A stretch of DNA of 64,000 nt from Pseudomonadota bacterium (GTDB taxonomy: Bacteria; Pseudomonadota; Alphaproteobacteria; Rhizobiales; JAKPQE01). The stretch lies in contig JAKPQE010000118.1 in the NCBI GenBank assembly GCA_029572955.1, forward strand, positions 1 to 64,000, in the 5' to 3' direction. Position numbers and translations under genes: made by a program. This document shows, in pieces, positions 1,262 to 35,267 of the stretch (within the stretch, counting starts at the first letter, position 1; each line of letters starts with the position of its first letter). The notes below the pieces were generated by a model. The model did no database searches. It saw nothing but the letters and a program-made list of their open reading frames with translations, and had not been told where the DNA came from.

Positions 1262-5011
<3,750 letters not shown>

Positions 5012-5637: not shown

Positions 5638-5709
5638 GACCTACCTCCAGTCGGATGTCGGACCTCGAACCACATTGTACAGTCAGGGCAAAGCGGGGAA
5701 CAGGACGTC

Positions 5710-9287: not shown

Positions 9288-10129
9288 CAGAACGCCTCCT
9301 CGAGATCCTGGACCTCGGCGAACGAGAACACCGGGCCGTCCACGCACACGTACTTGTCGTTGATCTGGCAGTGCCCGCACTTGCCGACGCCGCACTTCAT
9401 GCGGCGCTCGAGGTCGACGAAGACGTTCTCCCGGGGGACGCCGATGAGGTCGAGCTCGCGGACGACGAAGCGATAGAAGATCGGCGGGCCGCAGACGACG
9501 GCGCGCGTCTCGGGCGTGAGCTCGACCTTGGGGAACAAGGTCGTGATGACGCCGACGTTGCCCGTCCACGTGTCGTCGCCGACGTCGACCGTCTCGAAAT
9601 ACTCCACGTCGTCCGCCCCTCGCCAGCACGCAAGGTCGTCGCGGAACAGTTGCAGACACGGCTCTCGCGTACCGTAGAAGAGGATGAAGCGCCCGAACTC
9701 GTCACGACGGTCGAGGATGTACTGGATCAGACTCCGCGTCGGGCAGAGGCCGATGCCGCCGGCGACGATGAGCACGTCCTGGCCACGGAGCCCGGCGAGG
9801 TCGAAGCCGTGCCCGAGTGGGCCCCGCACCCAGACCGAGTCGCCCCCGGTCAGGCGGTTGATCGCCTTGGACACACGGCCCACCGAACGCACCACGAGGT
9901 CGAAGCTCTCGGTGCGCGTCGGCGAGCTGGCGAAGCCGATGGGGATCTCGCCGTAGCCGAAGAGGCCGAGCTCGACGATCTGGCCAGGCTGGAACTCCAT
10001 CGCGCGGCCGTCCTTCATGGCGAGCGTGAAGTGCTTCTCGGTGGGCGTCGCCTGCTCCGCCCGGACGATGGTCGCCTCACGGGGCATGAAGATGTTCTCG
10101 ACCTCCGTCCAGTGGCACTGATGGTTCAT
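9287..10129 (-). CDS. hydG: Hydrogenase gamma subunit, FAD/NAD(P)-binding diaphorase
   Basis: 280 residues, ferredoxin-NADP reductase fold with a C-terminal [2Fe-2S] site. An FAD-binding barrel (about 1-105) precedes an NAD(P)-binding part with VLIVAGGIGLCPTRSLI. The cluster ligands are C246, C251, C254 and C262 (MKCGVGKCGHCQ ... YVC). This subunit passes electrons between the FeS chain and NAD(P)H. I chose the ATG that gives MNHQCHWTE; an internal ATG (MPREATIV) is another possible start. Confidence 0.93.
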   Translation of the reverse strand: MNHQCHWTEVENIFMPREATIVRAEQATPTEKHFTLAMKDGRAMEFQPGQIVELGLFGYGEIPIGFASSPTRTESFDLVVRSVGRVSKAINRLTGGDSVWVRGPLGHGFDLAGLRGQDVLIVAGGIGLCPTRSLIQYILDRRDEFGRFILFYGTREPCLQLFRDDLACWRGADDVEYFETVDVGDDTWTGNVGVITTLFPKVELTPETRAVVCGPPIFYRFVVRELDLIGVPRENVFVDLERRMKCGVGKCGHCQINDKYVCVDGPVFSFAEVQDLEEAF

Positions 10130-10140
10130 CGCTGTGCTCC

Positions 10141-11169
10141 TCACGAGGCCATGATCCGATTGATGACCCGCACGGGGTCGGCGATGTCGGCCGTGCAGGC
10201 GGCCGAACAGCGGCCGCAGCCGACGCACGCAGGGCCACCCAGCTTGGGGTTCAGGTACACGGCCTTGCGCATGATGCGGTGGCGGAAACGCGCCCCCGGC
10301 GTCTCACGGAAGTTCTCGGTGGCGCCCTCGCCGAGCGAGACCTTGGCGAAGTCCTCGGTCAGGCAGGCGTCCCAGAACCGGGTGCGCTGCCCCGAGGCTT
10401 GGTCGACGTTCCAGGTGTCCTCGACGTCGAAGCAGTAGCAGGTCGGGCACACGGTGTTGCATGAGCCGCAGGAGAAGCAGTCCTTCGCCAGGTCGGACCA
10501 GAGGTCGTCGTCGCTGAAGGCGGCCCGGACCTTGGCGGCGATCTCGGCGGTGCCGTGTTCGAGCTTCTCCGGGCACCGCTCGAGCGCCGCCGCGTTCACC
10601 CGGGCCGCCTCGTCGATCTCAGCCTCCGTGGCGGGACGGAACGCGCCATACCCGAGCAACGCCTCGCCCCGTTCGGTCCGGGCCTCGAGCACGTAGCCGC
10701 CGTCGACCGCCGTGAGGAAGGCGTCATGCCCCTTGGGCCGCACCTCCGTGCCGACCGAGGCGAAGAACGCCCGACCCGAGACGTTCTGGATGTTCGCCGC
10801 GACGATCGTCGTCGTCTGGCGATGGGCCATGTAGTTGACGTCGTAGTTGCGCTCCGCGAACAGGACGTCGGTCTGGTCGATCGCCTTGACGTCGTAAAAG
10901 TGGACGCCGAAGAGGACCTTCTCGACCGGCTCCAGCGCCGCCGCCGGCCCAGCCTCGTCGAACCGGAGCAGGTCCTGCGCCGGAGAGAAAAAGAGCTTCC
11001 TCGGCGGCAGGATCGTGACGTCGTAGTCGAGACGCAGCTCCTCGGGGCTCTCCAGCCGGTCGAAGACGAAGCGCGAACGTTTGGCCACCGGCCCGTAGAC
11101 CGGCGTCGCCTCGAGCATGGCGGCCAGGAAAGCGGTGAGATCGTCACTCCGTATGAATGAGGTGGTCAT
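10141..11169 (-). CDS. hydB: Hydrogenase beta subunit, 4Fe-4S ferredoxin-type
   Basis: 342 residues, first gene of the hydBGDA-protease operon. The C-terminal half holds two [4Fe-4S] motifs: DCFSCGSCNTVCPTCYCFD and ACVGCGRCSAACTADIADP. The N-terminal half matches the sulfhydrogenase beta-subunit pattern (LPPRKLFFSPAQDLL, LFGVHFYDVKAIDQTD). In this family the subunit carries electrons and has been linked to sulfur reductase activity. It lies 11 bp before hydG. The operon promoter should be in 11170-11389; I could not identify clear -10/-35 boxes. Confidence 0.93.
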   Translation of the reverse strand: MTTSFIRSDDLTAFLAAMLEATPVYGPVAKRSRFVFDRLESPEELRLDYDVTILPPRKLFFSPAQDLLRFDEAGPAAALEPVEKVLFGVHFYDVKAIDQTDVLFAERNYDVNYMAHRQTTTIVAANIQNVSGRAFFASVGTEVRPKGHDAFLTAVDGGYVLEARTERGEALLGYGAFRPATEAEIDEAARVNAAALERCPEKLEHGTAEIAAKVRAAFSDDDLWSDLAKDCFSCGSCNTVCPTCYCFDVEDTWNVDQASGQRTRFWDACLTEDFAKVSLGEGATENFRETPGARFRHRIMRKAVYLNPKLGGPACVGCGRCSAACTADIADPVRVINRIMAS

Positions 11170-12674: not shown

Positions 12675-13184
12675 TCAGAGTCCCAAGTCGACGGCCCCGG
12701 TCTCTTCCGACCAGAAGTCCTTGACGATCAACTGCGCGCCCTTCACGGCTTGTTCGGGCACGTCGTACACGGCCACGACCTTTCTCGGCAGGTCGGGCTG
12801 GAGCTCCTGGAGGACAGCAAGAGCGTGGGGCACGACCACTCGACCGATGGCAGCGGTGCTGTACTTCTTTCCGTTCCCGCCCTTCAGACGCACACGGTCC
12901 TCACCGACGATGGCCGGCTTGTCCTTGCGGTTCGTGAGGGTCAGGTTGACGACGATGAAGACGCCGTCCGCCCTCTGCTTCAACGGCCCGGATCCGACCG
13001 TCGCCGACGTCCTGACTCTGGTGACTTTGAAGGTCGTGTCATAGAGGGTCAGGGTCTCGCCGACCTTGACGGTCTTGGTCACCTCCTGCCCGCCCTCTCC
13101 TCCACAACCGCTCGCCGGCAGCGCGATCGCGAGCATAGCCAGCACAAGCGTGACAGTGACAGACATGGATGCGAGCTTTCTCAT
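12675..13184 (-). CDS. DUF4352-like lipoprotein
   Basis: 169 residues from the ATG behind GGAGG; the longer frame is not needed. A signal peptide ends at LPASGC, a probable lipidation site. The rest resembles DUF4352/telokin-like immunoglobulin domains: VKVGETLTLYDTTFKVTRV, then FIVVNLTLTNRKDKPA, then a late VYDVPEQAVKGAQLIV strand. These domains sit on the outer face of the membrane in Gram-positive-type bacteria; their function is mostly unknown. Convergent with the MBL gene, with 46 bp between them. Confidence 0.75.
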   Translation of the reverse strand: MRKLASMSVTVTLVLAMLAIALPASGCGGEGGQEVTKTVKVGETLTLYDTTFKVTRVRTSATVGSGPLKQRADGVFIVVNLTLTNRKDKPAIVGEDRVRLKGGNGKKYSTAAIGRVVVPHALAVLQELQPDLPRKVVAVYDVPEQAVKGAQLIVKDFWSEETGAVDLGL

Positions 13185-13270
13185 CCTGCCTCCAGTCGTT
13201 CGGGACTCATGAGCGTCCGAAGAGCAGAGCGGCGGCGCCGCCGGTCGCACGGCATGGTAGGCTCGCCGAC

Positions 13271-14437
13271 ATGCGCATCACGCCCGTCATCAGGCCTGCT
13301 CTTGCCGCCTTTCGCATGTCGGCGCCGCGTATGTCGGCGCCGCGCATGTCGGCGGCGGCCGCAGGCAGTGCCGCCGCTCGCGTCAGGTCGAGCGGCGCCG
13401 CACTGCGCGTCGCGCGGGCCTTGTTCGCTGCGACCGCGCCCCGCTTGCTCGTCGTGGCGGCGGCCGCTCTGGTCGGCGCAGCGAGCGGCTGTGGAGGTGG
13501 GTCGGCGGACGGCACGGGCGCAAGCCCGCCCGCGTCGGCCGCCGCGCCGCTCGCCTCGGCGGGCGCGGCCGGCTTTCGCGCCTACGAGTTCGAGACGTGC
13601 TGGGGCTCGCGCGGCGCCGGACCCGGCCAGCTCTACTCGCCGAAGGGCGTCGCCGTGGACGGCGACGGCTTCGTCTACGTGGCCGACCGCGGCAACCACC
13701 GCGTCCAGAAGTTCACCGGCGACGGCGGACTCGTCGCGGTCTGGGGAAGCAAAGGGACGGGCGAGGGCCAGTTCCGCGTCCCGAGCCGTGTCGCCGTCGG
13801 TCCCGACGGGACGGTGTACGTGGCCGACACCCGGAACCATCGCGTGCAGGCGTTCGCCCCCGACGGCGCGTTCCTGCACGCCTGGGGCCATGAGGGCGAC
13901 GGCCCCGGCGCGTTCCTCCAGCCACGCGGCGTCGCCGTCGGCCCCGACGGGACGGTGTACGTGAGCGACGAGCGCGCCGCCCGTATCCAACGCTTCACAG
14001 CTGAGGGTCGCTTCGTTCGCGCCTGGGGGAAGCTGGGCGGCGGCGAGGGCCAGTTCCGGCATCCCAAAGACCTGGCGACAGCCTCCGACGGCCGCGTGTT
14101 CGTCGCCGACTCGGGCAACGAGCGCGTGCAGGTCTTCACCGCGGACGGCGAGTTCGTCGCCGCGTTCGGTGGCCACGGTGAAGGCGTCGGGGCGTTCCGC
14201 GGCCCGCGCGGCGTCGCCGTGACCGAGGACGGCGTCATACTCGTCAGCGAGTACCGCGGCCAGTGCATCGAGGAGTTCTCCCCCGACTACGCACCGCTCG
14301 GCGCGTGGGGCGCCGAGGGCGACGCTCCCGGACGGTTCGACGGACCACGCGCCATCGCCCTCGCCCCGGACGGTCGGTTGTACGTGGCCGACATGGCGAA
14401 CCACCGCATCCAGTGCTTCGTCCCCGTCGAAGAGTAG
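13271..14437 (+). CDS. NHL-repeat beta-propeller lipoprotein
   Basis: 388 residues. An Ala-rich leader with a hydrophobic stretch ends at GAASGCGGG, a likely lipobox. About six NHL repeats follow, each with the pattern P-x-G-V-A-V-x-x-D-G-x-V-Y-V-A-D-x-x-N-H-R-V-Q-x-F (for example GFVYVADRGNHRVQKF), making a six-bladed propeller. Such proteins bind partners or ligands outside the cell; no active site is visible. The N-terminus contains three tandem 15-bp repeats encoding RMSAP-like units that give several possible ATG starts, so the exact start is uncertain. Confidence 0.82.
   Translation: MRITPVIRPALAAFRMSAPRMSAPRMSAAAAGSAAARVRSSGAALRVARALFAATAPRLLVVAAAALVGAASGCGGGSADGTGASPPASAAAPLASAGAAGFRAYEFETCWGSRGAGPGQLYSPKGVAVDGDGFVYVADRGNHRVQKFTGDGGLVAVWGSKGTGEGQFRVPSRVAVGPDGTVYVADTRNHRVQAFAPDGAFLHAWGHEGDGPGAFLQPRGVAVGPDGTVYVSDERAARIQRFTAEGRFVRAWGKLGGGEGQFRHPKDLATASDGRVFVADSGNERVQVFTADGEFVAAFGGHGEGVGAFRGPRGVAVTEDGVILVSEYRGQCIEEFSPDYAPLGAWGAEGDAPGRFDGPRAIALAPDGRLYVADMANHRIQCFVPVEE
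13313..13357. repeat. Three tandem 15-bp repeats inside the NHL gene leader
   Basis: Units at 13313-13327, 13328-13342 and 13343-13357 share CG(C/T)ATGTCGGCG(C/G)CG. They encode RMSAP, RMSAP and RMSAA, and each contains an in-frame ATG. Copy-number change would alter the leader length without breaking the frame. Confidence 0.8.
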
Positions 14438-14513
14438 ACGGGGCCACCCTCAGGATGCCGTGCAGGGGCGGCGAAGCGCGCGTTGAATCGGTCAGCGAGC
14501 GCCGACGCGACCG

Positions 14514-15713
14514 ATGGGCGCGCCACGAAAGGAGCCCTCGCTGACGGAACAGCCTCCCGCGACGGAGCAATCCCGCGCCTTTTCCACGGCGCCTGACCCC
14601 GGTCCCGATCTTTCGCCGGACGACGGCCACGAACGCTGGCGGATCCCGTCATGGCTGCGCCTCGTCGGATCTTCGAGCTGGTACGCGATCGGGATCGTCA
14701 TCCTCATCGCCGCGTTCGCCTGGTTCGTCAAGACGACACAGGCGATCATCATCCCGTTCATCATCGCCGGTCTGCTGGCTCCGATGCTCTCCCCCCTCGC
14801 CAGCCGGCTCGAGCGTCACGGGATCAAGCGCTGGGTGGGCGCCCTGCTGGGAACGCTCCTCGTGATCGTCGCCGGCGTCGCCCTTGTCTTCCTCATCGTC
14901 GTCCAGGCCGCGAACCAGGCGGGCGAGATCGGTGACCAGATCGCGAAGGCGATCGGTGACGTGGCCGATTGGCTCGACAGGCAGGGCTGGGGCGGCACCG
15001 TCGTCTCCGCGGTCGGGACCGCCGTCCGCGAGAACTGGCAGACACTGGTCAAGGGGATCGTCCCCCGGGTGAGCGCCGGCCTGAGTTCCATTGTGACGAC
15101 GATCGTAGTCATCGTGCTCGCCATCAACATCCTCTTCTTCCTCATCAAGGACGGTCGCCGGATCGGCGGCTGGCTCAGCGGCCACCTCGGGGTGCCGCGC
15201 GCCATCGGCGCGCGCACACTGGCGCACAGCGCGAAGAGCATCCGCGGGTACTTCCTCGGCACGACCGTCGTGGGCATCGTCAATGCCTGCGTGGTGGGCA
15301 TCGGCGCCCTCCTGATGGACACGCCGCTGGCGTTCGTCATCGCGGTGGTCGTGCTCTTCACGAACTACGTGCCGTTCATCGGCGCGTTCATCGGCGGCGC
15401 GTTCGCGGTCCTCATCGCGTTCGCCGGCGGCGGGCCGTTCGACGCCCTCATCATGCTGATCCTGGTGCTCGCCGCCAACGGCCCCGCACAGTGGATCGTC
15501 CAACCCTTCGCGCTCAGCGCCACCCTCGACCTCCACCCGATCATCGTGATCTTCGTGACCATGGCCGGCGGCATCCTGGCCGGGCCGCTGGGGAGCGTCG
15601 TGGCGGCGCCGCTGACGGCGGTCGTCGTGGAGGCGGTGCGGCAGGTCCGCAGCGCGGGCCTGTTCAGCGAGGAAGAGGCAGCCGAGCCCACGGCCGAGCC
15701 GGGAGAGCCGTGA
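14514..15713 (+). CDS. AI-2E/PerM-family membrane transporter
   Basis: 399 residues. A Pro-rich cytoplasmic N-terminus (about 45 residues) is followed by a typical AI-2E family layout: two early helices (WYAIGIVILIAAFAWFV, AIIIPFIIAGLLAPML), a third, a soluble amphipathic stretch, then four or five helices ending in PLGSVVAAPLTAVVVEA. The conserved PFIGAFIGG block is present. Proteins of this family export small molecules or ions; the substrate here is unknown. The ATG at 14514 lacks a good ribosome site, whereas a strong AAAGGAG sits 6 nt before an in-frame CTG at 14541, so the true start may be that CTG. Confidence 0.88.
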   Translation: MGAPRKEPSLTEQPPATEQSRAFSTAPDPGPDLSPDDGHERWRIPSWLRLVGSSSWYAIGIVILIAAFAWFVKTTQAIIIPFIIAGLLAPMLSPLASRLERHGIKRWVGALLGTLLVIVAGVALVFLIVVQAANQAGEIGDQIAKAIGDVADWLDRQGWGGTVVSAVGTAVRENWQTLVKGIVPRVSAGLSSIVTTIVVIVLAINILFFLIKDGRRIGGWLSGHLGVPRAIGARTLAHSAKSIRGYFLGTTVVGIVNACVVGIGALLMDTPLAFVIAVVVLFTNYVPFIGAFIGGAFAVLIAFAGGGPFDALIMLILVLAANGPAQWIVQPFALSATLDLHPIIVIFVTMAGGILAGPLGSVVAAPLTAVVVEAVRQVRSAGLFSEEEAAEPTAEPGEP

Positions 15714-16431: not shown

Positions 16432-16506
16432 GGGCGATTAGCTCAGTGGGAGAGCGCCCGCCTCACACGCGGGAGGTCGTTGGTTCAAATCCAACATCGC
16501 CCACCA
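16432..16506 (+). tRNA. tRNA-Val (anticodon CAC), CCA encoded
   Basis: Cloverleaf is clear: acceptor GGGCGAT (16432-16438) pairs with ATCGCCC (16496-16502), the D arm has AGCTCAGTGGGAGAGC, the anticodon stem CCCGC/GCGGG frames the loop CTCACAC with anticodon CAC, and the T loop is GGTTCAAATCC. Discriminator A at 16503 and an encoded CCA at 16504-16506. Confidence 0.97.
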
Positions 16507-17012
16507 TCCATGCATCCGTCCAACTCTCCCTCCCCCCGGCTCGCCCGTCACTGTCTCCGCCGTCTCGCCCGTCACCGTCTCCGCCGCCTCGCGCCTTCAC
16601 TGTGTCCGCCGTCCCGATCGTCACTGTCGCCGTCCCGATCGTCTCTGTCGCCGTCTCGATCGCGATCGTCTCGATCGCGATCGTCACTTCGCCTGCGTTC
16701 TGACGGTCACTCCCGCTCAGGCCACGTCCTTCCCTCGCCGTCCACCGGCGATCGGGTCGTTTGTCCGAAGTGATGAAACGCAGCCGCACAGGTTGAAGTG
16801 CGCCTGCGGAGGATGTAGCGTGGCCGCTTGGCCCGACCACGTGCACCCGGGCGACCGGACTCCCCGTCCGCTCTCCCGCCCGGTCCTGAAGGGTCCCCCT
16901 GCAGCCTCACGAGCGCAGGCCGCAGCGCGGAAACAGGGCGTCGACCGTCCCGGACGGACGACGCATCAGGCCAGAAGGCAACACGAACGACGGTTCACTG
17001 GAGGTGGACAGG
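16507..17012. other. 506-bp gap with low-complexity 21-bp repeats
   Basis: No convincing gene. A GTC/GCC/GATC-rich stretch (about 16540-16690) contains three tandem 21-bp units at 16608-16628, 16629-16649 and 16650-16670 (GCCGTCCCGATCGTC-type), then a further TCGATCGCGATCGTC copy at 16671-16685. Frames through it start inside the tRNA and have repeat-driven composition, so I do not call them. The acs promoter should be near the 3' end of this gap. Confidence 0.6.
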
Positions 17013-18977
17013 GTGGCAGACCAGCCGAAGTTGATCCCGCCGTCACCCGAGTACTCGAAGGGCGCCTATATCAAGAGCCTCGAGGAGTATGAGGCTCAGT
17101 ACAAGCGCTCCATCGAGGATCCGGAGGGCTACTGGGCCGAGCGCGCCGAAGACGCGCTGGTGTGGACGAAGAAGTGGGACAAGGTCCTCGACTGGAGCTT
17201 CGAGCCGGTCCCGTACGTCAAGTGGTTCCAGGGCGGCGAACTCAACGCCTCGTACAACTGCCTGGACCGTCACGTCGAAGCCGGCAAGGGTGACAAGCCG
17301 GCCTTGATCTTCGAGGGCGACCCGGGAGACACGAAGACCTGCACCTTCAAGGAGCTCCTCGACGAGGTCAGTAAGTTCGCCAACGTGCTCAAGAAGCACG
17401 GCGTCAAGAAGGGTGACCGCGTCGCGTTGTACATGCCGATGATCGCCGAGCTGCCGGTGGTCATGCTCGCCTGCGCCCGCATCGGCGCCATCCACATGAT
17501 GGTCTTCGGAGGCTTCTCCGCCGAGGCCCTCAAGGCGCGCATCGACAACTGCGGCGCCAAGGTGCTCATCTGCGCCGACAAAGGATACCGCGGCGCCAAG
17601 ACCACGGCCTCCAAGGCCAACGCCGACATCGCGATCAGCGGCGGGTCCACGGTCGAGACGGTCATCGTCGTCAAGCGTGTCGACGGCGACGTGAACATGC
17701 AGGAAGGCCGCGACGTCTGGTACCACGATGAGATGGCGGCCCCCGACATCACCGCCGACTGCCCGCCGGTCCCGGTCGACGCCGAGCATCCGCTCTTCAT
17801 TCTCTACACGTCCGGCTCCACGGGCGCGCCGAAGGGCGTCATCCACAGCACCGGGGGCTACCTGCTCCACGTGTACGACACGTGCAAGTACGTCTTCAAC
17901 CTGCACGACGACGATATCCACTTCTGCACGGCCGACATCGGGTGGATCACCGGCCACAGCTACATCGTCTACGGCCCGCTCAGCATGGGCGTGACCAGCG
18001 TCCTCTTCGAGGGCCTGCCCACCTACCCCGAACCGGACCGCTACTGGCAGGTCGTCGAGAAGCACAAGACGACCACCATCTACACGGCGCCGACCGTCAT
18101 CCGCAGCCTCATCGGCCAGGGCGACGAGTGGGTCGACAAGCACGACATGCCGACGCTGCGCCTGCTGGCGTCGGTCGGCGAGCCGATCGACCCGCAGAGC
18201 TGGCTCTGGTTCTACAACAAGGTCGGCAAGGGCCGCGTGCCGCTGGTCGACACGTGGTGGCAGACCGAGACGGGCGGCCACATGATCGCCCCGCTCCCGG
18301 GCGCCATGACGCTCAAGCCCGGCTCCGCCGGGCGCCCGTTCTTCGGCGTCCAGACCAAGGTCCTCAACGACAAGGGCGAAGAGGCCGCGATCGGCGAGGA
18401 TGGCCACCTTGTCATCACCCACCCTTGGCCGGGCATGATCCGCGGCACGTGGGGCGACGTCGACGGCAAGCGCTACAGGGACGTGTACTTCACGATGTTC
18501 CCTGGCGTGTTCACCACCGGCGACGGCTGCGCGATCGACGCCGACGGCGACCACTGGCTCAAGGGCCGCATCGACGACGTCCTCAACGTGTCCGGACACC
18601 GTATCGGCACGTCCGACGTCGAGGGCGCCCTGGTGAGCCACCCGGCCGTCGCCGAGGCTGCCGTCGTAGGCTACCCGCACCCCATCAAGGGCACGGGCAT
18701 CTACACGTACGTGGTGCTGAACGAGGGTGTCGAGCCGAGCGACGACCTCAAGAAGGAACTCGCCGTGCACGTCCGCAAGGTCGTCGGTCCCATCGCGACG
18801 CCCGACAAGATCCAGTTCGCCATGACCGGCCTGCCGAAGACCCGCTCGGGCAAGATCATGCGCCGCATCCTCAGGAAGATCGCCGAGGACAGCTTCGACA
18901 ATCTCGGCGACACCTCGACGCTCGCCGACCCGACGGTCGTCGACAACCTCATCGACAACCGCCAGAACAAGAAGTGA
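17013..18977 (+). CDS. acs: Acetyl-CoA synthetase (AMP-forming)
   Basis: 654 residues from the GTG at 17013, which has GGAGG 8 nt upstream; a GTG at 17004 would add three residues but overlaps that site. It activates acetate to acetyl-CoA through acetyl-AMP. Motifs: P-loop YTSGSTGAPKGV, the WWQTETGGHM block that sets the acetate pocket, GRIDDVLNVSGHRIGT, and the C-terminal PKTRSGKIMRR with K614, the catalytic lysine that is acetylated in well-studied members. Full length for the family. It is the last gene of the actinobacterial-type part. Confidence 0.97.
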   Translation: MADQPKLIPPSPEYSKGAYIKSLEEYEAQYKRSIEDPEGYWAERAEDALVWTKKWDKVLDWSFEPVPYVKWFQGGELNASYNCLDRHVEAGKGDKPALIFEGDPGDTKTCTFKELLDEVSKFANVLKKHGVKKGDRVALYMPMIAELPVVMLACARIGAIHMMVFGGFSAEALKARIDNCGAKVLICADKGYRGAKTTASKANADIAISGGSTVETVIVVKRVDGDVNMQEGRDVWYHDEMAAPDITADCPPVPVDAEHPLFILYTSGSTGAPKGVIHSTGGYLLHVYDTCKYVFNLHDDDIHFCTADIGWITGHSYIVYGPLSMGVTSVLFEGLPTYPEPDRYWQVVEKHKTTTIYTAPTVIRSLIGQGDEWVDKHDMPTLRLLASVGEPIDPQSWLWFYNKVGKGRVPLVDTWWQTETGGHMIAPLPGAMTLKPGSAGRPFFGVQTKVLNDKGEEAAIGEDGHLVITHPWPGMIRGTWGDVDGKRYRDVYFTMFPGVFTTGDGCAIDADGDHWLKGRIDDVLNVSGHRIGTSDVEGALVSHPAVAEAAVVGYPHPIKGTGIYTYVVLNEGVEPSDDLKKELAVHVRKVVGPIATPDKIQFAMTGLPKTRSGKIMRRILRKIAEDSFDNLGDTSTLADPTVVDNLIDNRQNKK

Positions 18978-18989
18978 TGGCGGCCTGAC

Positions 18990-19013
18990 CCCGGGAACCG
19001 CTTGGTCCGGGGA
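18990..19013 (+). terminator. First hairpin after acs
   Basis: CCCCGG at 18990-18995 pairs with CCGGGG at 19008-19013 around a 12-nt loop, starting 12 bp after the acs stop. No T-run follows, so alone it would be a weak terminator; it may work with the next hairpin. Confidence 0.4.
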
Positions 19014-19025
19014 CCGAAACGAGCG

Positions 19026-19062
19026 AAGGCGCGGCGCCGCAAGGCCCCGCGCCTTTCTCTTT
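19026..19062 (+). terminator. Rho-independent terminator after acs
   Basis: AAGGCGCGG (19026-19034) pairs with CCGCGCCTT (19047-19055), 12-nt loop, followed by TCTCTTT. It ends acs transcription. Confidence 0.7.
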
Positions 19063-19153
19063 GGCGCGCCCGGCGCATGGTTGCGAGGCGGGCGCCGATC
19101 GGTTAAGCCGCGACGAACTCCGACCCGCCCGAACGACCAGCCGGAGAGCAGAC

Positions 19154-19666
19154 ATGCCTGCCAGCCGCGACGACCTCCTGCGCTTCCTCGCCGATCTCGG
19201 CATAAAGACCGCGACGGTCGACCATCCCGCGCTCTTCACCGTGGAACAGTCGCAGGAGCTGCGCGGCGAGATCGCCGGGGCGCATTCCAAGAACCTCTTC
19301 CTCAAGGACAAGAAGGACCGGATCTGGCTGGTGGTCGCCGAGGAGGAGACGCCGATCGACCTCAAGCGCCTGCACGAGACGATCGGCTCGGCGCGGGTGT
19401 CGTTCGGCCGGGCCGAGCTGATGGACGAGGTGCTCGGCGTGTCGCCGGGCTCGGTCACGCCGTTCGGCGTGATCAACGACACGGGGGCCCGAGTGACCGT
19501 GGTGCTCGACGCCCGCCTGATGGCGCACGAGGTTCTGAACTTCCACCCGCTCGTCAATACGGCGACGACGACGATCGGGCGCGACGACCTCGTCCGGTTC
19601 CTGCGGGCGACCGGCCACGAGCCGCTGATCCGCGACCTGCCGGTCCCGCCGGGCACAAGCGCCTGA
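19154..19666 (+). CDS. Prolyl-tRNA editing (YbaK/ProX) protein
   Basis: 170 residues, ATG behind GGAGAG. YbaK/aminoacyl-tRNA-deacylase fold that hydrolyses mischarged tRNA(Pro) in trans. Family marks: FLADLGIKTATVDHPALFTVEQ near the start, the catalytic-lysine region HSKNLFLKDKKDR, and SVTPFGVINDTG. The sequence is closest in style to the PrdX/ProXp group of alphaproteobacteria. First gene of the second part; thioredoxin follows. Confidence 0.9.
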   Translation: MPASRDDLLRFLADLGIKTATVDHPALFTVEQSQELRGEIAGAHSKNLFLKDKKDRIWLVVAEEETPIDLKRLHETIGSARVSFGRAELMDEVLGVSPGSVTPFGVINDTGARVTVVLDARLMAHEVLNFHPLVNTATTTIGRDDLVRFLRATGHEPLIRDLPVPPGTSA

Positions 19667-19777
19667 GGCGGGGCGTTTGCCTTTGTGTTATATGAGTCCC
19701 ATCTTATGAACGAAATTCAGCGCGCGGGCCCGGGCCGCCAAGGGCGGGTGCCGCGCGCGACAATACGGGGATGCCTG

Positions 19778-20692
19778 ATGGAAACGATTATCGGAGCTTC
19801 CGGCGGCGCGCCTGCCGGCAAGGCGGAGGCCGTGATCGACACGACGACCGAAACTTTCATGGCCGATGTGATCGATGCCTCCAAGGACCGGCCGGTGCTC
19901 GTCGATTTCTGGGCCGAATGGTGCGGTCCGTGCCGGCAGCTCGCGCCGGTGCTCGAAAAGGTCGTCGCGGCATCGAAGGGCCGGGTCAAGCTGGTCAAGA
20001 TGAACATCGACCACTATCCGGAGATCGCCGGCCAGCTCGGCATCCGCTCGATCCCGGCGGTCGTCGCCTTCAAGGGCGGCCAGCCGGTCGATGCCTTCAT
20101 GGGAGCCGTGCCGGAGAGCAAGATCGTCGCCTTCATCGAAAAGCTCGCCGGTCCGGCCGGGCCGAGCGTTGCCGACGAATTGCTCGGCGCCGCCGAAGCG
20201 GCGATGGAAGCCGGCGACTATCCGGCCGCTGCCGAGGCCTTCGCGGCGATGCTCGCCGAGGATGCGGCGGATGTGCGCGCCATTGCCGGCCTTGCCGAGT
20301 GCTATATCGCGGCCGGCGAGCTCGAACATGCCGAGCAGACGCTGGCGATGGTGCCGGTCAACAAGCAGAACGATGCCGCGGTGGCGCGGGCCAAGGCGAA
20401 GCTCGAACTCGCCCGCAATGCCGGCTCGCTCGGCGACGCGCTCGAACTCGAGGCGCGGCTCGAAAGCAACCCGGACGACCATCAGGCACGCTTCGATCTG
20501 GCGCTGCTGCTCAACGCCCACGACAAGCGGGAAGCGGCGGTCGACGCGCTGATCGAGATCGTGCGGCGCGACCGGACCTGGAACGAGGACGGCGCGCGCA
20601 AGCAGCTCGTCACCTTCTTCGACGCCTGGGGCGCCAAGGACCCGCTGACGGTCGCCGGCCGGCGCAAGCTGTCGGCGGTGCTGTTCCGCTAG
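19778..20692 (+). CDS. Thioredoxin with TPR tail (co-chaperone YbbN/CnoX type)
   Basis: 304 residues. An N-terminal thioredoxin domain (about 20-130) has the redox site W48-C-G-P-C52 and cis-Pro in RSIPAV. The C-terminal half is helical with TPR-like repeats (ADELLGAAEAAMEAGDYPAA, LAECYIAAGELEHAE). This is the YbbN/CnoX layout, a holdase cooperating with chaperones. I chose the ATG at 19778 because the residues before it are not conserved in style; a start at 19685 is possible. Confidence 0.92.
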   Translation: METIIGASGGAPAGKAEAVIDTTTETFMADVIDASKDRPVLVDFWAEWCGPCRQLAPVLEKVVAASKGRVKLVKMNIDHYPEIAGQLGIRSIPAVVAFKGGQPVDAFMGAVPESKIVAFIEKLAGPAGPSVADELLGAAEAAMEAGDYPAAAEAFAAMLAEDAADVRAIAGLAECYIAAGELEHAEQTLAMVPVNKQNDAAVARAKAKLELARNAGSLGDALELEARLESNPDDHQARFDLALLLNAHDKREAAVDALIEIVRRDRTWNEDGARKQLVTFFDAWGAKDPLTVAGRRKLSAVLFR

Positions 20693-20834
20693 GGCGCTTT
20701 CTCGGGCCGCGGGCAACCGGTCTTTCCGAGAACGCGCGACGAAAGACGCGACGAGCCGGTCGCCGCTCTCCACGGAGGCGGGCCGGCTCGCGAAGAACGC
20801 GGCGGAACATCGCCGCATTCGAGGAGAAACCGCC

Positions 20835-21527
20835 ATGGCCGCCAATCGCAAGTATCAGGGGCCACAGGACCTGCCGCCGGTCATTCCGGTGTTTCCGCTG
20901 CCGGCGGCGCTGCTGCTGCCGCGCGGCCAGCTGCCGCTCAACATCTTCGAGCCGCGCTATGTCGCCATGATCGACGACGCGCTTTCCGGCGATCGGATAA
21001 TCGGCATGGTGCAGCCGGCGCTCAAGCGGGCCGGGGACGATGCCGCGGCCGCGACCAGGGAGGCGCCCAAACTCGCCAGGGTGGGCTGCGCCGGGCGCCT
21101 CACCTCGTTCACCGAGACCAATGACGGGCGCTATCTCATCACGCTCAACGGCGTCAGCCGCTTCCACATCGTCGAGGAAATCGAGACCGACAAGCCGTAC
21201 CGGCTGTGCCGGATCGACACCGAGCCGTTCGGCAGCGATTTCGTGCCCGGCTTCGGCGAGGAGGCGGTCGATCGCGACGCGCTGCTGGCCGCGTTCCGCG
21301 CCTATCTCGATACCAACGACATGGAAGCCGACTGGGACAATGTCGCGCAGGTGTCGAACGAAGTCCTCGTCAACACGCTGTCGATGATGAGCCCCTACGG
21401 CCCGGCCGAAAAGCAGGCGCTGCTCGAGGCGCCCGACCTCGTCACCCGTGCCGAGACGCTGATCGCGGTGACCGAGATCGCGCTTGCCCGCGCCAATGCC
21501 CCCGAAGAGCCTTCCTCGCTGCAGTAA
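20835..21527 (+). CDS. LON N-terminal (substrate-binding) domain protein
   Basis: 230 residues, ATG behind GAGGAG. It has only the Lon substrate-binding domain ([32 protein letters not shown] split over residues 15-47) and no ATPase or protease part. The start [10 protein letters not shown] and central [20 protein letters not shown] are typical of the LON-domain family found next to thioredoxin and Trm112 genes in Rhizobiales. Biochemical role unknown. Confidence 0.9.
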
Positions 21528-21543
21528 ACCAAGGATCGCATCC

Positions 21544-21747
21544 GTGACCGAAGAAACGGCAAGCAGGGCCGGCGGCACCATCGACCGCAAGCTCCTCGAA
21601 ATCCTCGTCTGTCCGTTGACCAAGACGACGCTCGAATACGACGCCAAGGCGCAGGAGCTGATCAGCCGGGCGGCGAAGCTCGCCTATCCGATCCGCGACG
21701 GCATTCCGATCATGCTCGCCGAAGAGGCCCGCCCGCTCGGCGAGTGA
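21544..21747 (+). CDS. Trm112-family protein
   Basis: 67 residues from a GTG start, 16 bp after the LON gene. Matches the YcaR/Trm112 group: [18 protein letters not shown], then [13 protein letters not shown]. Only one Cys of the usual zinc pairs is kept, as is common in bacterial members. Eukaryotic and archaeal Trm112 activates methyltransferases; bacterial roles are unclear. Confidence 0.88.
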
Positions 21748-21905
21748 GCGGCCGCCGGCTCCGCCGACCGATCCCGTTTCGACAGATATCCCGTCGCAGC
21801 GCCGTCGCTTCGCCGCGCGGCGGTCGATGGCCGTTGTCCGGACCGCCGGGCCGGTTTCCCCTTCGCCCGGAAACGCTTTAGGATCGGCCGCAGGAGGATT
21901 GGGAG

Positions 21906-22367
21906 ATGCGATCGATCCGCACCATCGCGTTGGCCATTGCCGCGATCGCGGCCGGCGCCGGTCTCAGTCTCGGCGATCCCGCCGTCGGCGCGGAGTACCG
22001 GCCGGGCGAGACCTTCCAGCACAATCACTTCATCACCGCCAACCAGTGCGATCTCGAGATCTACAAGGTCACCAAGCACTGGTCGAGCAGCGGCGGCGTC
22101 ATCGAGCGGGCCGAGAACTGGGCCGGCAAGGGCGACGACTGGAAGATGACGGATTATGCCGCGAACCGGCCGATCGGCCATTTCACCTACAACACCAGCT
22201 ACAAGCTGCGCAAAGGCCGGCAGGTCGCGGCGCGCATCGCCTTCCAGACGCGGATCGGACGGGTCGGGCAGGTGACGACGACGGTGGTCTTCTACTATCG
22301 CGGCGCCTGCGTCGGGCCGGGCGGCAAGGCCCAGACCTCGAGCACCGAGACCTCGATCGTGCGCTGA
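21906..22367 (+). CDS. Secreted protein of unknown function
   Basis: 153 residues, ATG behind AGGAG. A signal peptide (MRSIRTIALAIAAIAAGAG) with probable cleavage after VGA is followed by a mature part rich in aromatic and polar residues (FQHNHFITANQCDLEIY, TYNTSYKLRKGRQ). Two cysteines (C48, C136) could form a disulfide in the periplasm. I do not recognise the family. Confidence 0.65.
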   Translation: MRSIRTIALAIAAIAAGAGLSLGDPAVGAEYRPGETFQHNHFITANQCDLEIYKVTKHWSSSGGVIERAENWAGKGDDWKMTDYAANRPIGHFTYNTSYKLRKGRQVAARIAFQTRIGRVGQVTTTVVFYYRGACVGPGGKAQTSSTETSIVR

Positions 22368-22380
22368 CGGCGGATGCCGC

Positions 22381-23625
22381 TCAGAGCGCCTCGCCGCGCA
22401 AGAGGCGCGGCAGGTTGCCGTTGATGCCGGCGGCTTCCTCGATGAAGAACCGCTTCAGCACCGGCAGGCGGTCGACGAGGCCGAGGCCGACGTCGCGGGC
22501 GATGCGCAGGAAGTCGTTGTCGTTGGAAAACAGGCGATTGATGACGTCGGTGACGGCGCCCATCTGCACCGTGTCGAAGCGGCGCCAGCGCTCGTAACGT
22601 TCGAGCACGGCGAGCGAGCCCGGATCGAGGCCGATGCGGCGGGCGTCGACGACGACCTCGGCCAGTGCCGCGACATCGCGGAAACCCATGTTGAGACCCT
22701 GGCCGGCGATCGGGTGGATGCCGTGGGCGGCGTCGCCGGCAAGGGCGAAGCGCGGCTTGACGAAGCTGCGCGCGATCTGCAGGCGCAGCGGGAAGGCATG
22801 GCGCGGGCCGGCGATCTCGAGCGTGCCGAGATGATGGCCGAAGCGGCGCTCGAGTTCGAGGCGGAAGGTCAGGTCGTCGCCCTCGACGAGGCGGCGGGCG
22901 CGGTCGTGCGGCTCGGTCCAGACGAGCGAGGAGCGATTGCCGGTCAACGGCAGGATGGCGAACGGGCCGGCGGGCAGGAAATGCTCCTCGGCGCGGCCAT
23001 TGTGCGGGCGCTCGTGGGCGACGGTGGTGACGATGCCCGACTGGCCGTAGTCCCAGCCGACGGTGCGGATGCCGGCAAGATCGCGCAGGCGCGAGCGCAC
23101 GCCGTCGGCGGCAACGAGCAGGGAAGCGCCGATGCGCCGCTCCGATCCGAGTTCGATCGTCACCGAATCGGCATCGACGTCGAAGCCGGTCACGGTGTCG
23201 GGGGCGACGAAGTCGACCCCGGCGGCGATCGCGCGGTCGCGCAGGGCCTTCACCATCACCGCGTTCGGGACCATGTAGGCGAAGGGCTGGCCGGGCTCGA
23301 CCTCGCCGGCGAAGGTCAGGAACACCGGCCGGGCGACGTCGCCGGTGCGCGAATCGGTGATCACCATGTCGAGGATCGGCTGGGCCTGCGGCTCGATCTC
23401 GTGCCACACGTCGAGCTGTTCGAGCATCTTGGCGGCCGCCGAAGCAATGGCCGAGGCACGCGGGTCGCGGTCGGCGACCTCGACCGGGCGGGCGTCGACG
23501 ACGGCGACGCGGCAGGCCGGGTCGGCATCCTTGACCGCAAGCGCCAGGGCGAGGCCGACATAGTTTCCGCCGGCGACGAGAACGTCGACGCGCTCGTCCG
23601 CCTGTTGCTGCCGATCCCTGGTCAT
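22381..23625 (-). CDS. UbiH/UbiF/VisC-family FAD hydroxylase
   Basis: 414 residues, flavoprotein monooxygenase that hydroxylates the ubiquinone ring. FAD dinucleotide motif VLVAGGNYVGLALA (about 15-28), mid motif LLVAADGVRSRLR, and the second FAD motif GDAAHGIHPIAGQGLNMGF, which is the family signature. The ATG at 23625 fits the family start; an upstream in-frame extension exists but reaches towards divergent tesB. Which ring carbon it acts on cannot be told. Confidence 0.92.
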   Translation of the reverse strand: MTRDRQQQADERVDVLVAGGNYVGLALALAVKDADPACRVAVVDARPVEVADRDPRASAIASAAAKMLEQLDVWHEIEPQAQPILDMVITDSRTGDVARPVFLTFAGEVEPGQPFAYMVPNAVMVKALRDRAIAAGVDFVAPDTVTGFDVDADSVTIELGSERRIGASLLVAADGVRSRLRDLAGIRTVGWDYGQSGIVTTVAHERPHNGRAEEHFLPAGPFAILPLTGNRSSLVWTEPHDRARRLVEGDDLTFRLELERRFGHHLGTLEIAGPRHAFPLRLQIARSFVKPRFALAGDAAHGIHPIAGQGLNMGFRDVAALAEVVVDARRIGLDPGSLAVLERYERWRRFDTVQMGAVTDVINRLFSNDNDFLRIARDVGLGLVDRLPVLKRFFIEEAAGINGNLPRLLRGEAL

Positions 23626-23757
23626 TCGCGTCACTCCGATCACGCTTGACTTACCTTCGGGCGCCTGCTGCAAACAGGGAACCCGCGAAGTCCGGTATTC
23701 GCGCCGGCGCATCCGGCCGCCCGCGTTCGACAGTCTTTATAGGAAAGATCGCGACCG

Positions 23758-24618
23758 ATGTCCTCTGCCGTCGAAAACCTGCTCGGCATCCTCGACCTCG
23801 AACCGCTCGAGCACAATCTCTTCCGTGGCAACAGCCCGCAGGTCGGCTGGCAGCGGGTGTTCGGCGGACAGGTGATCGGCCAGGCGCTGGTCGCCGCCGC
23901 GCGCACCGTCGAGGGCCGCGAGATCCATTCGCTGCACGGCTATTTCCTCAGGCCGGGCGATCCCAAGGTGCCGATCATCTACGAGGTCGACCGGATCCGC
24001 GACGGCAAGAGCTTCACCACCCGGCGGGTCGTCGGCATCCAGCACGGTCACGCCATCTTCTCCATGGGTGCCTCGTTCCAGATCCCGGAGGAGGGCCTCG
24101 AGCACCAGTTCGAGATGCCCGAGGTGCCGCCGCCGGAAAAGCTGCCGAGCGAGGCCGACCTGAAGAAGATGTTCATGCACATGGTGCCCGAGCAGGTGAA
24201 GCGCTACTGGGAGCGCGAGCGGCCGATCGAGTTCCGGCCGGTCGACCTTCTGCAGCGCTATGCCAGCCGCGAGAAGCGCCCGCCTTTCCAGAACGTCTGG
24301 TTCAAGGCGACGGAGCGGCTGCCGGACGATCCGCGCATCCATCAGTGCGTGCTCGCCTACGCCTCGGACATGACGCTGCTCGACACCTCGCTGATCGCCC
24401 ATGGCCGCACCGTGTTCGACAAGGACCTGCAGCTCGCCAGCCTCGATCATGCGCTCTGGTACTATCGGCCGTTCCGGGCCGACGACTGGCTGCTCTACGT
24501 GCAGGACAGCCCGGTGTCGGGCGGCGCGCGCTCGTTCAATCGGGGCAACATCTTCACCCGCGAGGGCGTTCTCGTCGCGAGCGTCGTGCAGGAAGGCCTG
24601 ATCCGCGTGCGCGACTGA
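23758..24618 (+). CDS. tesB: Acyl-CoA thioesterase II
   Basis: 286 residues, double-hotdog thioesterase that hydrolyses acyl-CoA. Conserved blocks: FRGNSPQVGWQRVFGGQVIG, EIHSLHGYFLRPGD, VLAYASDMTLLDTSL (catalytic Asp), LDHALWYYRPFRADDW and the final RGNIFTREGVLVASVVQEGL. Full length for TesB. Divergent from the ubiH-like gene. Confidence 0.95.
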   Translation: MSSAVENLLGILDLEPLEHNLFRGNSPQVGWQRVFGGQVIGQALVAAARTVEGREIHSLHGYFLRPGDPKVPIIYEVDRIRDGKSFTTRRVVGIQHGHAIFSMGASFQIPEEGLEHQFEMPEVPPPEKLPSEADLKKMFMHMVPEQVKRYWERERPIEFRPVDLLQRYASREKRPPFQNVWFKATERLPDDPRIHQCVLAYASDMTLLDTSLIAHGRTVFDKDLQLASLDHALWYYRPFRADDWLLYVQDSPVSGGARSFNRGNIFTREGVLVASVVQEGLIRVRD

Positions 24619-24684
24619 TTTCGCGCTCATCCCACTTCGATCGGCGCCCGGCAGAGGCGGCCGCCCGCCAGCCTCGGGTGCTTC

Positions 24685-25593
24685 ATGCAGGGACCGTCCC
24701 GGACCACCGCCACGCTGATCGGCATCACCGCGGTGCCGATCTGGTCGACGCTCGCCATGCTGGCGGCCGTTGCCGGCAAGATTCCGCCGTTCCAGCTCAA
24801 TGCGATGGCGTTCCTCGTTGCCGGGCTGATCGGCGCGGCGTCGTGGCTGCGCCGGCCCCATGCGATGCGGGCGCTCATCCAGCCGATCGGCGCCTGGGCG
24901 ACGGGGATTGCCGGCCTTTTCGGCTATCACTTTCTCTATTTCACGGCGCTGCAGGGGGCGCCGCCGATCCCGGCGAGCCTCATCAACTACCTCTGGCCGC
25001 TGCTGATCGTCGTCTTCTCGGCGCTGCTGCCGGGCGAGAAGCTCGGCTGGCACCACATGCTCGGCGCGGCGATGGGGCTCGCTGGCACGGTGGTGGTGGT
25101 GACCGGCGGCGGCGGCGTCGCCATCGCGCCCGAACACGTTCCGGGCTATCTCGCGGCGTTCGGGGCGGCGCTGTTCTGGTCGAGCTATTCGGTGCTGTCG
25201 CGGCGCTTTTCGGCGGTGCCGACCGATGCGGTCACCGGCTTCTGCCTGGCGACGGCGCTCCTCAGCCTCGTCTCGCATCTGGCGCTCGAGACGACGGTCT
25301 GGCCCGAGACATGGGCGCAATGGGCGGCGGTCTTCGGCCTCGGTCTTGGTCCGGTCGGCGGCGCGTTCTATTTCTGGGACTACGGCCTCAAGCGCGGCGA
25401 CATCCAGGTGATGGGCGTTTCGGCCTATGGCGCGCCGCTGCTGTCGACGCTGCTCCTCATCGTCTTCGGCTATGGCGCGTTCACGCTGCCGGTGGCGCTC
25501 GCGGCGCTGCTGATCACCGGCGGCGCGCTGATCGCGGCCAAGGACATGCTGTTCAGGAAGCGCCGGCTCAGAAGTGGTCCTTCCGCGACCTGA
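24685..25593 (+). CDS. EamA/DMT-family transporter
   Basis: 302 residues with about ten predicted helices in two EamA repeats (for example SLINYLWPLLIVVFSALLPGEKLG and FYFWDYGLKRGDIQVMGVSAY). Members export amino acids or other metabolites; substrate not predictable. Its last 26 bp overlap the convergent gloB gene. Confidence 0.9.
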   Translation: MQGPSRTTATLIGITAVPIWSTLAMLAAVAGKIPPFQLNAMAFLVAGLIGAASWLRRPHAMRALIQPIGAWATGIAGLFGYHFLYFTALQGAPPIPASLINYLWPLLIVVFSALLPGEKLGWHHMLGAAMGLAGTVVVVTGGGGVAIAPEHVPGYLAAFGAALFWSSYSVLSRRFSAVPTDAVTGFCLATALLSLVSHLALETTVWPETWAQWAAVFGLGLGPVGGAFYFWDYGLKRGDIQVMGVSAYGAPLLSTLLLIVFGYGAFTLPVALAALLITGGALIAAKDMLFRKRRLRSGPSAT

Positions 25594-26341
25594 TCTCGGC
25601 AAAGACCTCCCAATCCTTCGCCGCCTCGAGGCCGAGCGCCTTGCGGATGCCGGCGTCGCGGGCGCGCAGGAACGGATTGGTCGCCTTCTCCTGCGCCATC
25701 GTCGTCGGCAGGGTCGGATGGCCCTCGCGGCGCAGCTCGACGACGCGTTCGAGCCGCGATCGGAGCACCGGGTTGTCGGGGTCGACGGTGACCGCGAACT
25801 TGGCGTTGGAGAGCGTGTATTCGTGGCCGCAATAGACCAGCGTGTCGTCGGGCAGGGTCTCTTGCAGCCTGTCGAGGCTCTGCCACATCATTTCGGGCGT
25901 GCCCTCGAAGACGCGGCCGCAACCCATGGCAAAGAGCGTGTCGCCGACAAAGGCGACGCCGCCCCCGGGGCACCACCAGGCGAGGTGGCCGAGGGTGTGG
26001 CCCGGTACGGCGATCGCCCGGAGCGCGGCCTGGCCGAGGGCGAAGTCGTCACCGTCGGCGACAGCCTCGTCGAGGCCCTCGATGCGGTGGGCATCGCTCG
26101 CCGCGCCGACGACGCGGCAGCCGGTTTCGGCCTTCAGCTTCGGGATGCCGCCGATATGGTCCCAGTGGTGGTGGGTGACGATGACGTGGCTGAGGCCCCA
26201 GCCGGTCTCGGCGACGGCGGCGAGCACCGCGTCGGCATCGGGCGCGTCGATCGAGGCGGTCGCGCCCGAGACCGGATCGTGGACGAGGACCCCGTAATTG
26301 TCCGAGAGACAGGGGAACATGTGGACGTCGAGCACGGACAT
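25568..26341 (-). CDS. gloB: Hydroxyacylglutathione hydrolase (glyoxalase II)
   Basis: 257 residues, metallo-beta-lactamase fold. The metal motif is THHHWDHIGG (H57, H59, D61, H62), with further ligands in VPGHTLGHLAWW and FVGDTLFAMGCGR, and YCGHEYTLSNAKFA. The C-terminal glutathione-binding region ends with NPFLRARD. It hydrolyses S-lactoylglutathione to lactate and glutathione. Confidence 0.96.
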   Translation of the reverse strand: MSVLDVHMFPCLSDNYGVLVHDPVSGATASIDAPDADAVLAAVAETGWGLSHVIVTHHHWDHIGGIPKLKAETGCRVVGAASDAHRIEGLDEAVADGDDFALGQAALRAIAVPGHTLGHLAWWCPGGGVAFVGDTLFAMGCGRVFEGTPEMMWQSLDRLQETLPDDTLVYCGHEYTLSNAKFAVTVDPDNPVLRSRLERVVELRREGHPTLPTTMAQEKATNPFLRARDAGIRKALGLEAAKDWEVFAEIRSRKDHF

Positions 26342-26516
26342 ATGGGTCTCCCGGCGTTTGGGCGTTGTCCTGCCAGGTTAGCGCGATCCGCGCGGCCCCG
26401 CACCCCCGAGGCGGGGGCGGTCGGGGCGCCGATTCGCCTTTGCCCCTTCCGCCGCTTGCATCCCGGTCATATCTCCGCGTTATGATCACCGGGCCGCCAA
26501 GGGATTTCCCGCCGCC

Positions 26517-27254
26517 ATGCATCTCGACGTCATCGATCTCAGGAATTTCTACGCCGGGCCGCTCGGCGCCATGGCACGGCGCGCCCTCGGCGAACGGCTC
26601 GTCGCGCATTGGGGCGACGTTACCGGCATGGCGGTGCTCGGCGTCGGCTATGCGACGCCCTATCTGCCGGCGCTCTCCGACGGTGCCGAGCGGGTGATCG
26701 CCTTCATGCCGGCAACACAGGGCGTCGTCGGCTGGCCGGTGCTCGGGCCGAACGCCTCGGCGCTCGTCGACGAGACGGCGCTGCCGCTCAACGATGCGAC
26801 GATCGACCGGGCGCTCGTCGTGCACGGGCTCGAAATGTCGGAATCGCCGCGGCTTTTCCTGCGTGAGCTGTGGCGCGTGCTGGCGCCGGGCGGGCGGGTG
26901 TTGATCGTCGTGCCGAACCGGCGCGGCCTCTGGGCCCATACCGACAAGACGCCGTTCGGCCACGGCAGGCCGTTCACCCGGTCGCAGCTCACCGATTTCC
27001 TGCGCGAGGCGATGCTCTCGCCGAGCGCCTGGTCGGATGCGCTGCACATGGTGCCCGCCGCCAACCGCACGCTGATCGGCTCGGCCGGCCTCTTCGACCG
27101 GATCGGCCGCGTCGCCTGGGCGAGCTTCGGCGGCGTCATCATCGTCGAGGCGACGAAGCAGGTCTATCGCGCCCTGCCGGCCGGCGAGAAGGCGCGCGGA
27201 CGCCTGGCGCTGCGCCCGGTGCTGGCGCCGCCGGCCGCGCCGCGTCGTCCCTGA
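26517..27254 (+). CDS. SAM-dependent methyltransferase
   Basis: 245 residues, class I methyltransferase. SAM-binding motif I is VLGVGYATPYLP (about 40-51); the post-I acidic position is less clear. A later ALVVHGLEMSESPRLFLRELWRVLAPGGRVLIV block is typical of Methyltransf_11. Two divergent features with gloB and gene order next to chorismate mutase are common in Rhizobiales. Substrate unknown. Confidence 0.85.
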   Translation: MHLDVIDLRNFYAGPLGAMARRALGERLVAHWGDVTGMAVLGVGYATPYLPALSDGAERVIAFMPATQGVVGWPVLGPNASALVDETALPLNDATIDRALVVHGLEMSESPRLFLRELWRVLAPGGRVLIVVPNRRGLWAHTDKTPFGHGRPFTRSQLTDFLREAMLSPSAWSDALHMVPAANRTLIGSAGLFDRIGRVAWASFGGVIIVEATKQVYRALPAGEKARGRLALRPVLAPPAAPRRP

Positions 27255-27384
27255 GCGCGGTCCCGGGGCGATTTCGCGGTTTCCTTTTGATTTCGGCGCG
27301 TGCCTTTCCTATGAATACGCGCCCGCGGCGCCGCGCCATCGCGTCCGGACCCGCGGCACAAGGACCTTTGACGGCACGAACGAC

Positions 27385-28221
27385 ATGGCTTCCGAGACGC
27401 CGAAGACCGAACGCAGCCTCGACGACCTGCGCCGGGAGATCGACAGGATCGATGCGGACATGCATCGCCTGCTGATCTCGCGCGGCGAGATCATCGACGA
27501 GCTCATCGCGGTCAAGAAATCGAGCGAGACGGGCTCGGCCTTCCGGCCGGCGCGCGAGGCCTCGATGCTGCGCCGGATCGCCGAGCGCCATCACGGCATC
27601 CTGCCGCTCGACACGGTCGAGAGCATCTGGCGGGTCATCATCTCGACCTTCACCTATGTGCAGGCGCCCTATTCGGTGCATGTGGCGACAGACGGGCCGG
27701 AGATGCGCGACGTCGCCCGGTTCCATTTCGGCTTCACGGTGCCGCTCGTCGTCCATGCCGACGCCAACGAGGCGATCGCCGCGGTGATCGCGGCCAAGGG
27801 CGACCTCGGCCTCATCCATGCCGGCGAGCACAACGACGATCCCTGGTGGGACGGCCTCGCCGACGCGGCGGCGCCGAAGGTCATCGCCCGGCTGCCCTTC
27901 GTCGAGCGGGCCGATCATCCGGCCGGACGGCAGGTGTTCGTCGTGGCGCGGGCGGCGGCGGACGCGGCGGCGACCGATGTGGTGCTTTTCGCCGTCCATG
28001 GCGACGGCGTCCGCCGCGATGCGGCGGCCCTCGCCGCGGCCGGGTTCGAACTCGTCGACTGGTCGGACGCCGGCGCGGCGGCATCGCTGCTCGTCGCGGC
28101 GAGCGGTTCGCTCGCCACCGACCAATCCGCCCGCCGTCTCGGCGAACATTTCGGCGCGGGCGCGCGCGTTGCCCTCGTCGGCAGCCACGCGGCGCCGTTC
28201 CGCGTCGGCGCCACCGGCTGA
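27385..28221 (+). CDS. Chorismate mutase (AroQ type) with C-terminal extension
   Basis: 278 residues. Residues about 10-95 are an AroQ chorismate mutase: LRREIDRIDADMHRLLISR, EIIDELIAVKKS and LPLDTVESIWRVII. It converts chorismate to prephenate. The remaining 180 residues do not show prephenate dehydratase motifs; they have two alpha/beta-like halves and may regulate the enzyme. It heads a cluster with hisC and tyrA, so it supplies prephenate to TyrA. Confidence 0.9.
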   Translation: MASETPKTERSLDDLRREIDRIDADMHRLLISRGEIIDELIAVKKSSETGSAFRPAREASMLRRIAERHHGILPLDTVESIWRVIISTFTYVQAPYSVHVATDGPEMRDVARFHFGFTVPLVVHADANEAIAAVIAAKGDLGLIHAGEHNDDPWWDGLADAAAPKVIARLPFVERADHPAGRQVFVVARAAADAAATDVVLFAVHGDGVRRDAAALAAAGFELVDWSDAGAAASLLVAASGSLATDQSARRLGEHFGAGARVALVGSHAAPFRVGATG

Positions 28222-28251
28222 TCGAACATTTTCCAAGAACGGATGAGATCC

Positions 28252-30308: not shown

Positions 30309-30329
30309 CGCCCGCCTCGGGATCGGGTC

Positions 30330-31361: not shown

Positions 31362-31519
31362 CGTCGGCTCCTCGAATCGGGGGTCGCGGGCGCTTGCGCG
31401 GCGCTGGGTTCTTGCCGGCGCCGGTGGCTCCTGATAGGCGCTTTCCCTGTCCGACGGCAAGCGCCTCGAGGCACGGCGCCATCGGCGCGATCGACACGCG
31501 AAGGATCGGGACACGGGAA

Positions 31520-32050: not shown

Positions 32051-32080
32051 GCGGCGGCAAGATCGGAATCGGGCGGCGAA

Positions 32081-32428: not shown

Positions 32429-32448
32429 GTCGTGCTCCGTTCCAGTGA

Positions 32449-32474
32449 GAACAAAAGTAGAACAACTTTTGTTC
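32449..32474 (-). promoter_or_regulatory. LexA-type box within a 10-bp inverted repeat
   Basis: On the minus strand the sequence is GTTC-TACTTTT-GTTC (32449-32463), matching the alphaproteobacterial LexA consensus GTTC-N7-GTTC. It is part of a longer perfect inverted repeat: GAACAAAAGT (32449-32458) and ACTTTTGTTC (32465-32474), spacer 6. It lies just upstream of the 115-residue gene. The rest of the 201-bp gap to plsC (32429-32629) shows nothing else. Confidence 0.65.
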
Positions 32475-33397: not shown

Positions 33398-33429
33398 CGA
33401 TCTTTGCGACACCAGACGAGAATTGGAAT

Positions 33430-35260: not shown

Positions 35261-35267
35261 CGCCGGC

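Follow-up and report, generated by a model that had tools for sequence, protein, structure and literature searches.

Does a contig that carries housekeeping genes of two phyla record a transfer between bacteria, or two genomes put together by mistake? The question is raised by the window analysed here, which covers bases 1-64000 of contig C33 (66,370 bp) in a draft genome (G000) of 182 contigs and 3.76 Mb with 98.7% completeness and 3.6% contamination. The original prediction, made from the sequence, had placed rpoB/rpoC, a group 3b hydrogenase, acs and tRNA-Val of actinobacterial type to the left of a gap and a conserved alphaproteobacterial chromosomal order to the right of it, with housekeeping genes on both sides. 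A false join was its preferred reading, and a 45-kb transferred core block its alternative.

Two Blocks in One Contig

The description of the two sides was borne out: gene calling recovered housekeeping genes on either side of the gap, the hydrogenase, tRNA-Val and acs on the left matched Actinomycetota metagenome-assembled genomes (MAGs) at 78-99% DNA identity, and the gene order on the right is common to Rhizobiaceae records. By homology and composition, window 1-18,977 is actinobacterial and Thermoleophilia-like, and the sequence from about 19,154 to 64,000 is alphaproteobacterial, like the remainder of the genome (Table 1). The GC content of the two sides is nearly the same.

The first genes to the right of the gap encode a ProRS-associated (YbaK-type) protein, from 19154, followed by thioredoxin/YbbN-type, LON-domain, Trm112-type, ubiH-type and tesB genes; ftsE, xerD, aroB, cobS and cobT are among those further along. 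The ProRS-associated/thioredoxin/LON/Trm112/ubiH/tesB order is the one found in Rhizobiaceae, and it is partly shared by genomes of the same order. In actinobacterial genomes this block was not found beyond short conserved pieces, mostly around ftsE. A lost native left neighbour for the ProRS-associated gene was sought in 12 relatives; the upstream order is not conserved among them and no gene could be named.

The genome has a native rpoBC locus of its own on contig C154, arranged nusG-rplK-rplJ-rpoB-rpoC-rpsG and alphaproteobacterial in type. The best solved match of its rpoB is 7ye1, which we take to be the Caulobacter enzyme, at 2304 bits versus 1760 for that of E. coli. On another contig (G000:C84:18723-19982, L246) it also encodes a native NiFe hydrogenase large subunit of the sulfhydrogenase type, which shares 38% identity with the foreign subunit.

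Table 1. Features of the window, with strand and the evidence for each assignment
Feature	Coordinates	Strand	Evidence or remark
Actinobacterial rpoC, 5' part, cut by the contig start	3..1235	-	NCBIfam rpoC; 411/411 aa identical to G041:C280
Actinobacterial rpoB, the second rpoB of G000	1262..5011	-	NCBIfam rpoB; 1249/1249 aa identical to G041:C280
Sensor histidine kinase	5074..6729	+	99.6% aa identity to G041:C280
Hydrogenase maturation protease	6765..7220	-	TIGR00072
NiFe hydrogenase alpha (large) subunit, sulfhydrogenase type, group 3b-like	7225..8529	-	NF040828
Hydrogenase delta (small) subunit	8535..9476	-	NF040836/NF040831
Hydrogenase gamma subunit; ORF start probably too long	9287..10228	-	
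Hydrogenase beta subunit	10141..11169	-	NF040829
NHL-repeat-type protein and AI-2E family transporter	13169..15713	+	Same order in G054:C61
tRNA-Val(cac)	16432..16506	+	91-99% identity to the tRNA-Val that precedes acs in actinobacterial relatives
Actinobacterial acs	17004..18977	+	83-88% DNA identity to actinobacterial relatives
Interval of the almost certainly false join	18978..19153	.	Terminator-like hairpin 19041-19055; no repeat, no N
Alphaproteobacterial chromosomal block, native to G000	19154..64000	.	Gene order, homology, 5-mers

The Left Block

The closest relative of the left end is contig C280 (8253 bp) of the MAG Actinomycetota bacterium AS06rmzACSIP_249 (JAAYBE01; G041), which matches window 1-6711 end-to-end over 6711 bp at 99.55% identity. 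There are 30 mismatches, 26 of them coding, and 25 of these 26 fall at third codon positions; this pattern, together with the identical RpoB and RpoC' proteins, indicates that C280 and this part of the window come from two wild strains of the same species. Among solved structures, 8dy7 and 6bzo match the window rpoB best; these are presumably the Streptomyces and Mycobacterium tuberculosis polymerases, respectively.

Upstream of rpoB the arrangement differs among the actinobacterial genomes. In three sister genomes another conserved block begins about 90 bp upstream of the gene; in the window (5099-5250) and in C280, the sensor kinase and then the hydrogenase stand in its place. The sensor kinase adjoins the hydrogenase in actinobacterial relatives too. 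Since two strains 0.45% apart have it, the arrangement upstream of rpoB looks like a lineage-specific rearrangement, as far as the compared sequences tell, although an assembly error common to both could also have produced it.

The region with the hydrogenase and its protease (6750-11196) is 91.8% identical at the DNA level to another contig of AS06rmzACSIP_249 and 78-80% identical to other actinobacterial MAGs, two of which are named Thermoleophilia. All residues of the alpha subunit (434/434, 100%) were matched in JAAYBE010000084.1, an Actinomycetota MAG contig (L060). None of 40 genomes of the same order as G000 has a close hydrogenase, the best reaching 41% aa identity. Between the hydrogenase and the NHL/AI-2E/acs blocks, window 11200-13600 gave scattered weak matches only, and this stretch is apparently variable within the actinobacterial group. 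Further along, G054:C61 keeps the NHL protein, the AI-2E transporter and acs in the order of the window, and in actinobacterial relatives tRNA-Val and acs follow each other in the same order and with similar spacing. An alphaproteobacterial acs was considered, given that its DNA identity to same-order genomes reaches 74%, and was rejected because actinobacterial relatives reach 83-88% and have tRNA-Val placed alike. By these matches, and by the gene order conserved across actinobacterial MAGs, most of the left block is ordinary chromosome of a Thermoleophilia-type lineage.

The likeness to AS06rmzACSIP_249 is uneven: C280 resembles window 1-6711 at 99.55%, but the hydrogenase contig (C436) reaches 92% and the acs contig (C74) only 85%. 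From this fall in identity among the three contigs it appears that the MAG probably mixes two related species, C280 being the odd contig and most of the bin belonging to a sister species. Anaerobic digester reactors are the source of other MAGs in the AS06rmzACSIP set (PMC8092238, PMC11346949), and it is plausible that mixed digester communities make joins of the kind considered here.

The Join Interval

Homology of acs to its relatives reaches 18,974, three bases short of the end of the stop codon, and the right block opens at 19,154. The switch, which had been put at about 19.06 kb, does lie in the gap region, but it is only bounded to 18,974-19,154. The original prediction had also proposed comparing the composition of the two sides, and the comparison gave an abrupt change, much larger than chance would produce: the 5-mer log-likelihood ratio runs from -13 to -59 bits/kb (actinobacterial) in all 19 left kilobases and from +28 to +81 bits/kb (like the rest of the genome) in all 45 right kilobases, with a composition changepoint at 18.7-19.05 kb. 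Codon usage switches at the gap as well, the left block still resembling the donor. Within the 176-base gap the k-mer score is near zero, and placing the switch at base level by k-mers was dropped for too little signal. The eight other contigs of the genome that were sampled all have the same alphaproteobacterial k-mer character as the right block.

GC-rich terminator-like inverted repeats of the type seen in the gap also come after acs in actinobacteria. No meaningful match to 18,960-19,165 was obtained elsewhere in G000 or among the actinobacterial genomes, and no k-mer or repeat shared at the join was found in the compared sequences, which exclude the donor's own post-acs DNA. Among the genes called near the join there is no integrase or transposase, and no att site or flanking repeat was found there, in agreement with what had been stated of the switch with regard to integrase, transposase and repeats; of the recombinases seen, a chromosomal XerD at 49 kb lies closest. 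Recurrence of the join in other genomes had been named as evidence against a false join, and the 40 same-order genomes contain no such join, their matches to the acs side and to the right block lying in different places.

Missing Continuations of the Foreign Piece

The contig begins inside rpoC, so that the left end of the foreign block coincides with the contig end, and the remainder of the gene is absent from the genome. A 1.5-kb query from C280 that covers the missing part of the foreign rpoC hit nothing in the genome but the native gene on C154, at no more than 80% identity. A 19-kb actinobacterial rpoBC region compared with G000 matched only C33:3-5095 and C154, the matches of the foreign remainder on C154 being at 68-81% identity; the foreign operon therefore stops at the contig end without continuation elsewhere in the bin. 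At the other end of the block the actinobacterial gene order breaks off. Where close sister genomes extend far enough past acs, the gene is succeeded by recurring kinase-like, large CoA-ligase-like and third-family genes in partly overlapping combinations (the kinase-like and CoA-ligase-like names were read off the sequences, not taken from a family search). This post-acs block is absent from the window, and a close copy of it is absent from the genome. The foreign piece is an arbitrary fragment, with conserved order interrupted on either side, by the join and by the contig end.

Origin of the Join

What was observed comprises the separate origins of the two blocks, a native rpoBC on another contig, a foreign operon whose remainder is missing, and an actinobacterial gene order that breaks off. 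The near-identity of the left end to an Actinomycetota contig, the intact native rpoBC, the truncated foreign rpoC and the broken post-acs order together make it almost certain that assembly produced a chimera, in which a Thermoleophilia-type piece was wrongly joined to an alphaproteobacterial contig, and we infer that the join is a product of computation and did not arise in a cell. An assembler would have joined window 1 to about 18,977, from an uncultured Thermoleophilia-type actinobacterium, onto an alphaproteobacterial contig (about 19,154 on); as binning acts on whole contigs and the GC content is nearly the same, the foreign 19 kb would then have been carried into the alphaproteobacterial genome. 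The original preference for a false join was upheld by the same lines of evidence, namely the C280 match, the C154 locus, the cut rpoC and the disrupted order. Its alternative of a 45-kb transferred core block had the direction wrong: it is the 19 kb on the left that are foreign, since the other sampled contigs of the genome are alphaproteobacterial. Two points speak against a chimera. The join is intergenic, as a natural insertion might be, and the assembler's reason for making it is not explained by any k-mer or repeat in the compared sequences, the donor's post-acs DNA not being among these.

A real and very recent horizontal transfer would place at least 19 kb of actinobacterial chromosome, with a second rpoB/rpoC, a group 3b-type hydrogenase and acs, in an alphaproteobacterium. 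Such a transfer would fit a piece that runs directly into host sequence within the contig, with the junction between genes, and hydrogenases of group 3b type are found in phyla far apart; however, the join shows neither a mobility gene nor an att site or repeat, the foreign rpoC stops at the contig end with its remainder missing from the genome, and no relative examined shares the piece. Moreover, RpoB and RpoC' identical to those of an Actinomycetota MAG contig would need extreme recency, and we consider a transfer very improbable. The opposite assignment, in which the bin is really an actinobacterium and the 45-kb alphaproteobacterial part the contaminant, has nothing in its favour among the results and is contradicted by the sampled contigs, which score alphaproteobacterial in eight cases out of eight, and by the full rpoBC locus on C154, alphaproteobacterial as well; its probability is practically negligible.

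Within the reading as an assembly chimera, the join may have been made by scaffolding or by merging of assemblies rather than by the contig assembler, with the same outcome. An intergenic join without a shared repeat would suit this origin, but the absence of an N gap tells against it, and it seems an unlikely sub-case. Scaffolding across an N gap is ruled out, as the window contains no N bases.

The GUNC paper (PMC8201837) gives a definition of chimeric contigs that arise in MAGs by misassembly, and describes misassembly as rarer than mis-binning. The contig studied here resembles the chimeric contigs of that paper in having two distant lineages in one contig of an otherwise well-scoring genome, and nothing essential differs.

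Consequences for Use of the Genome

The matter is one of quality control: although this species-level entry scores well for completeness, a single contig supplies it with acs, a hydrogenase and a second rpoB/rpoC that belong to a different phylum. Trees built on rpoB, lists of hydrogenase hosts and surveys of gene transfer would be in error if they drew on this contig. The remedy is to cut the contig at about 18,978-19,153 and to discard the left 19 kb before the genome is used.
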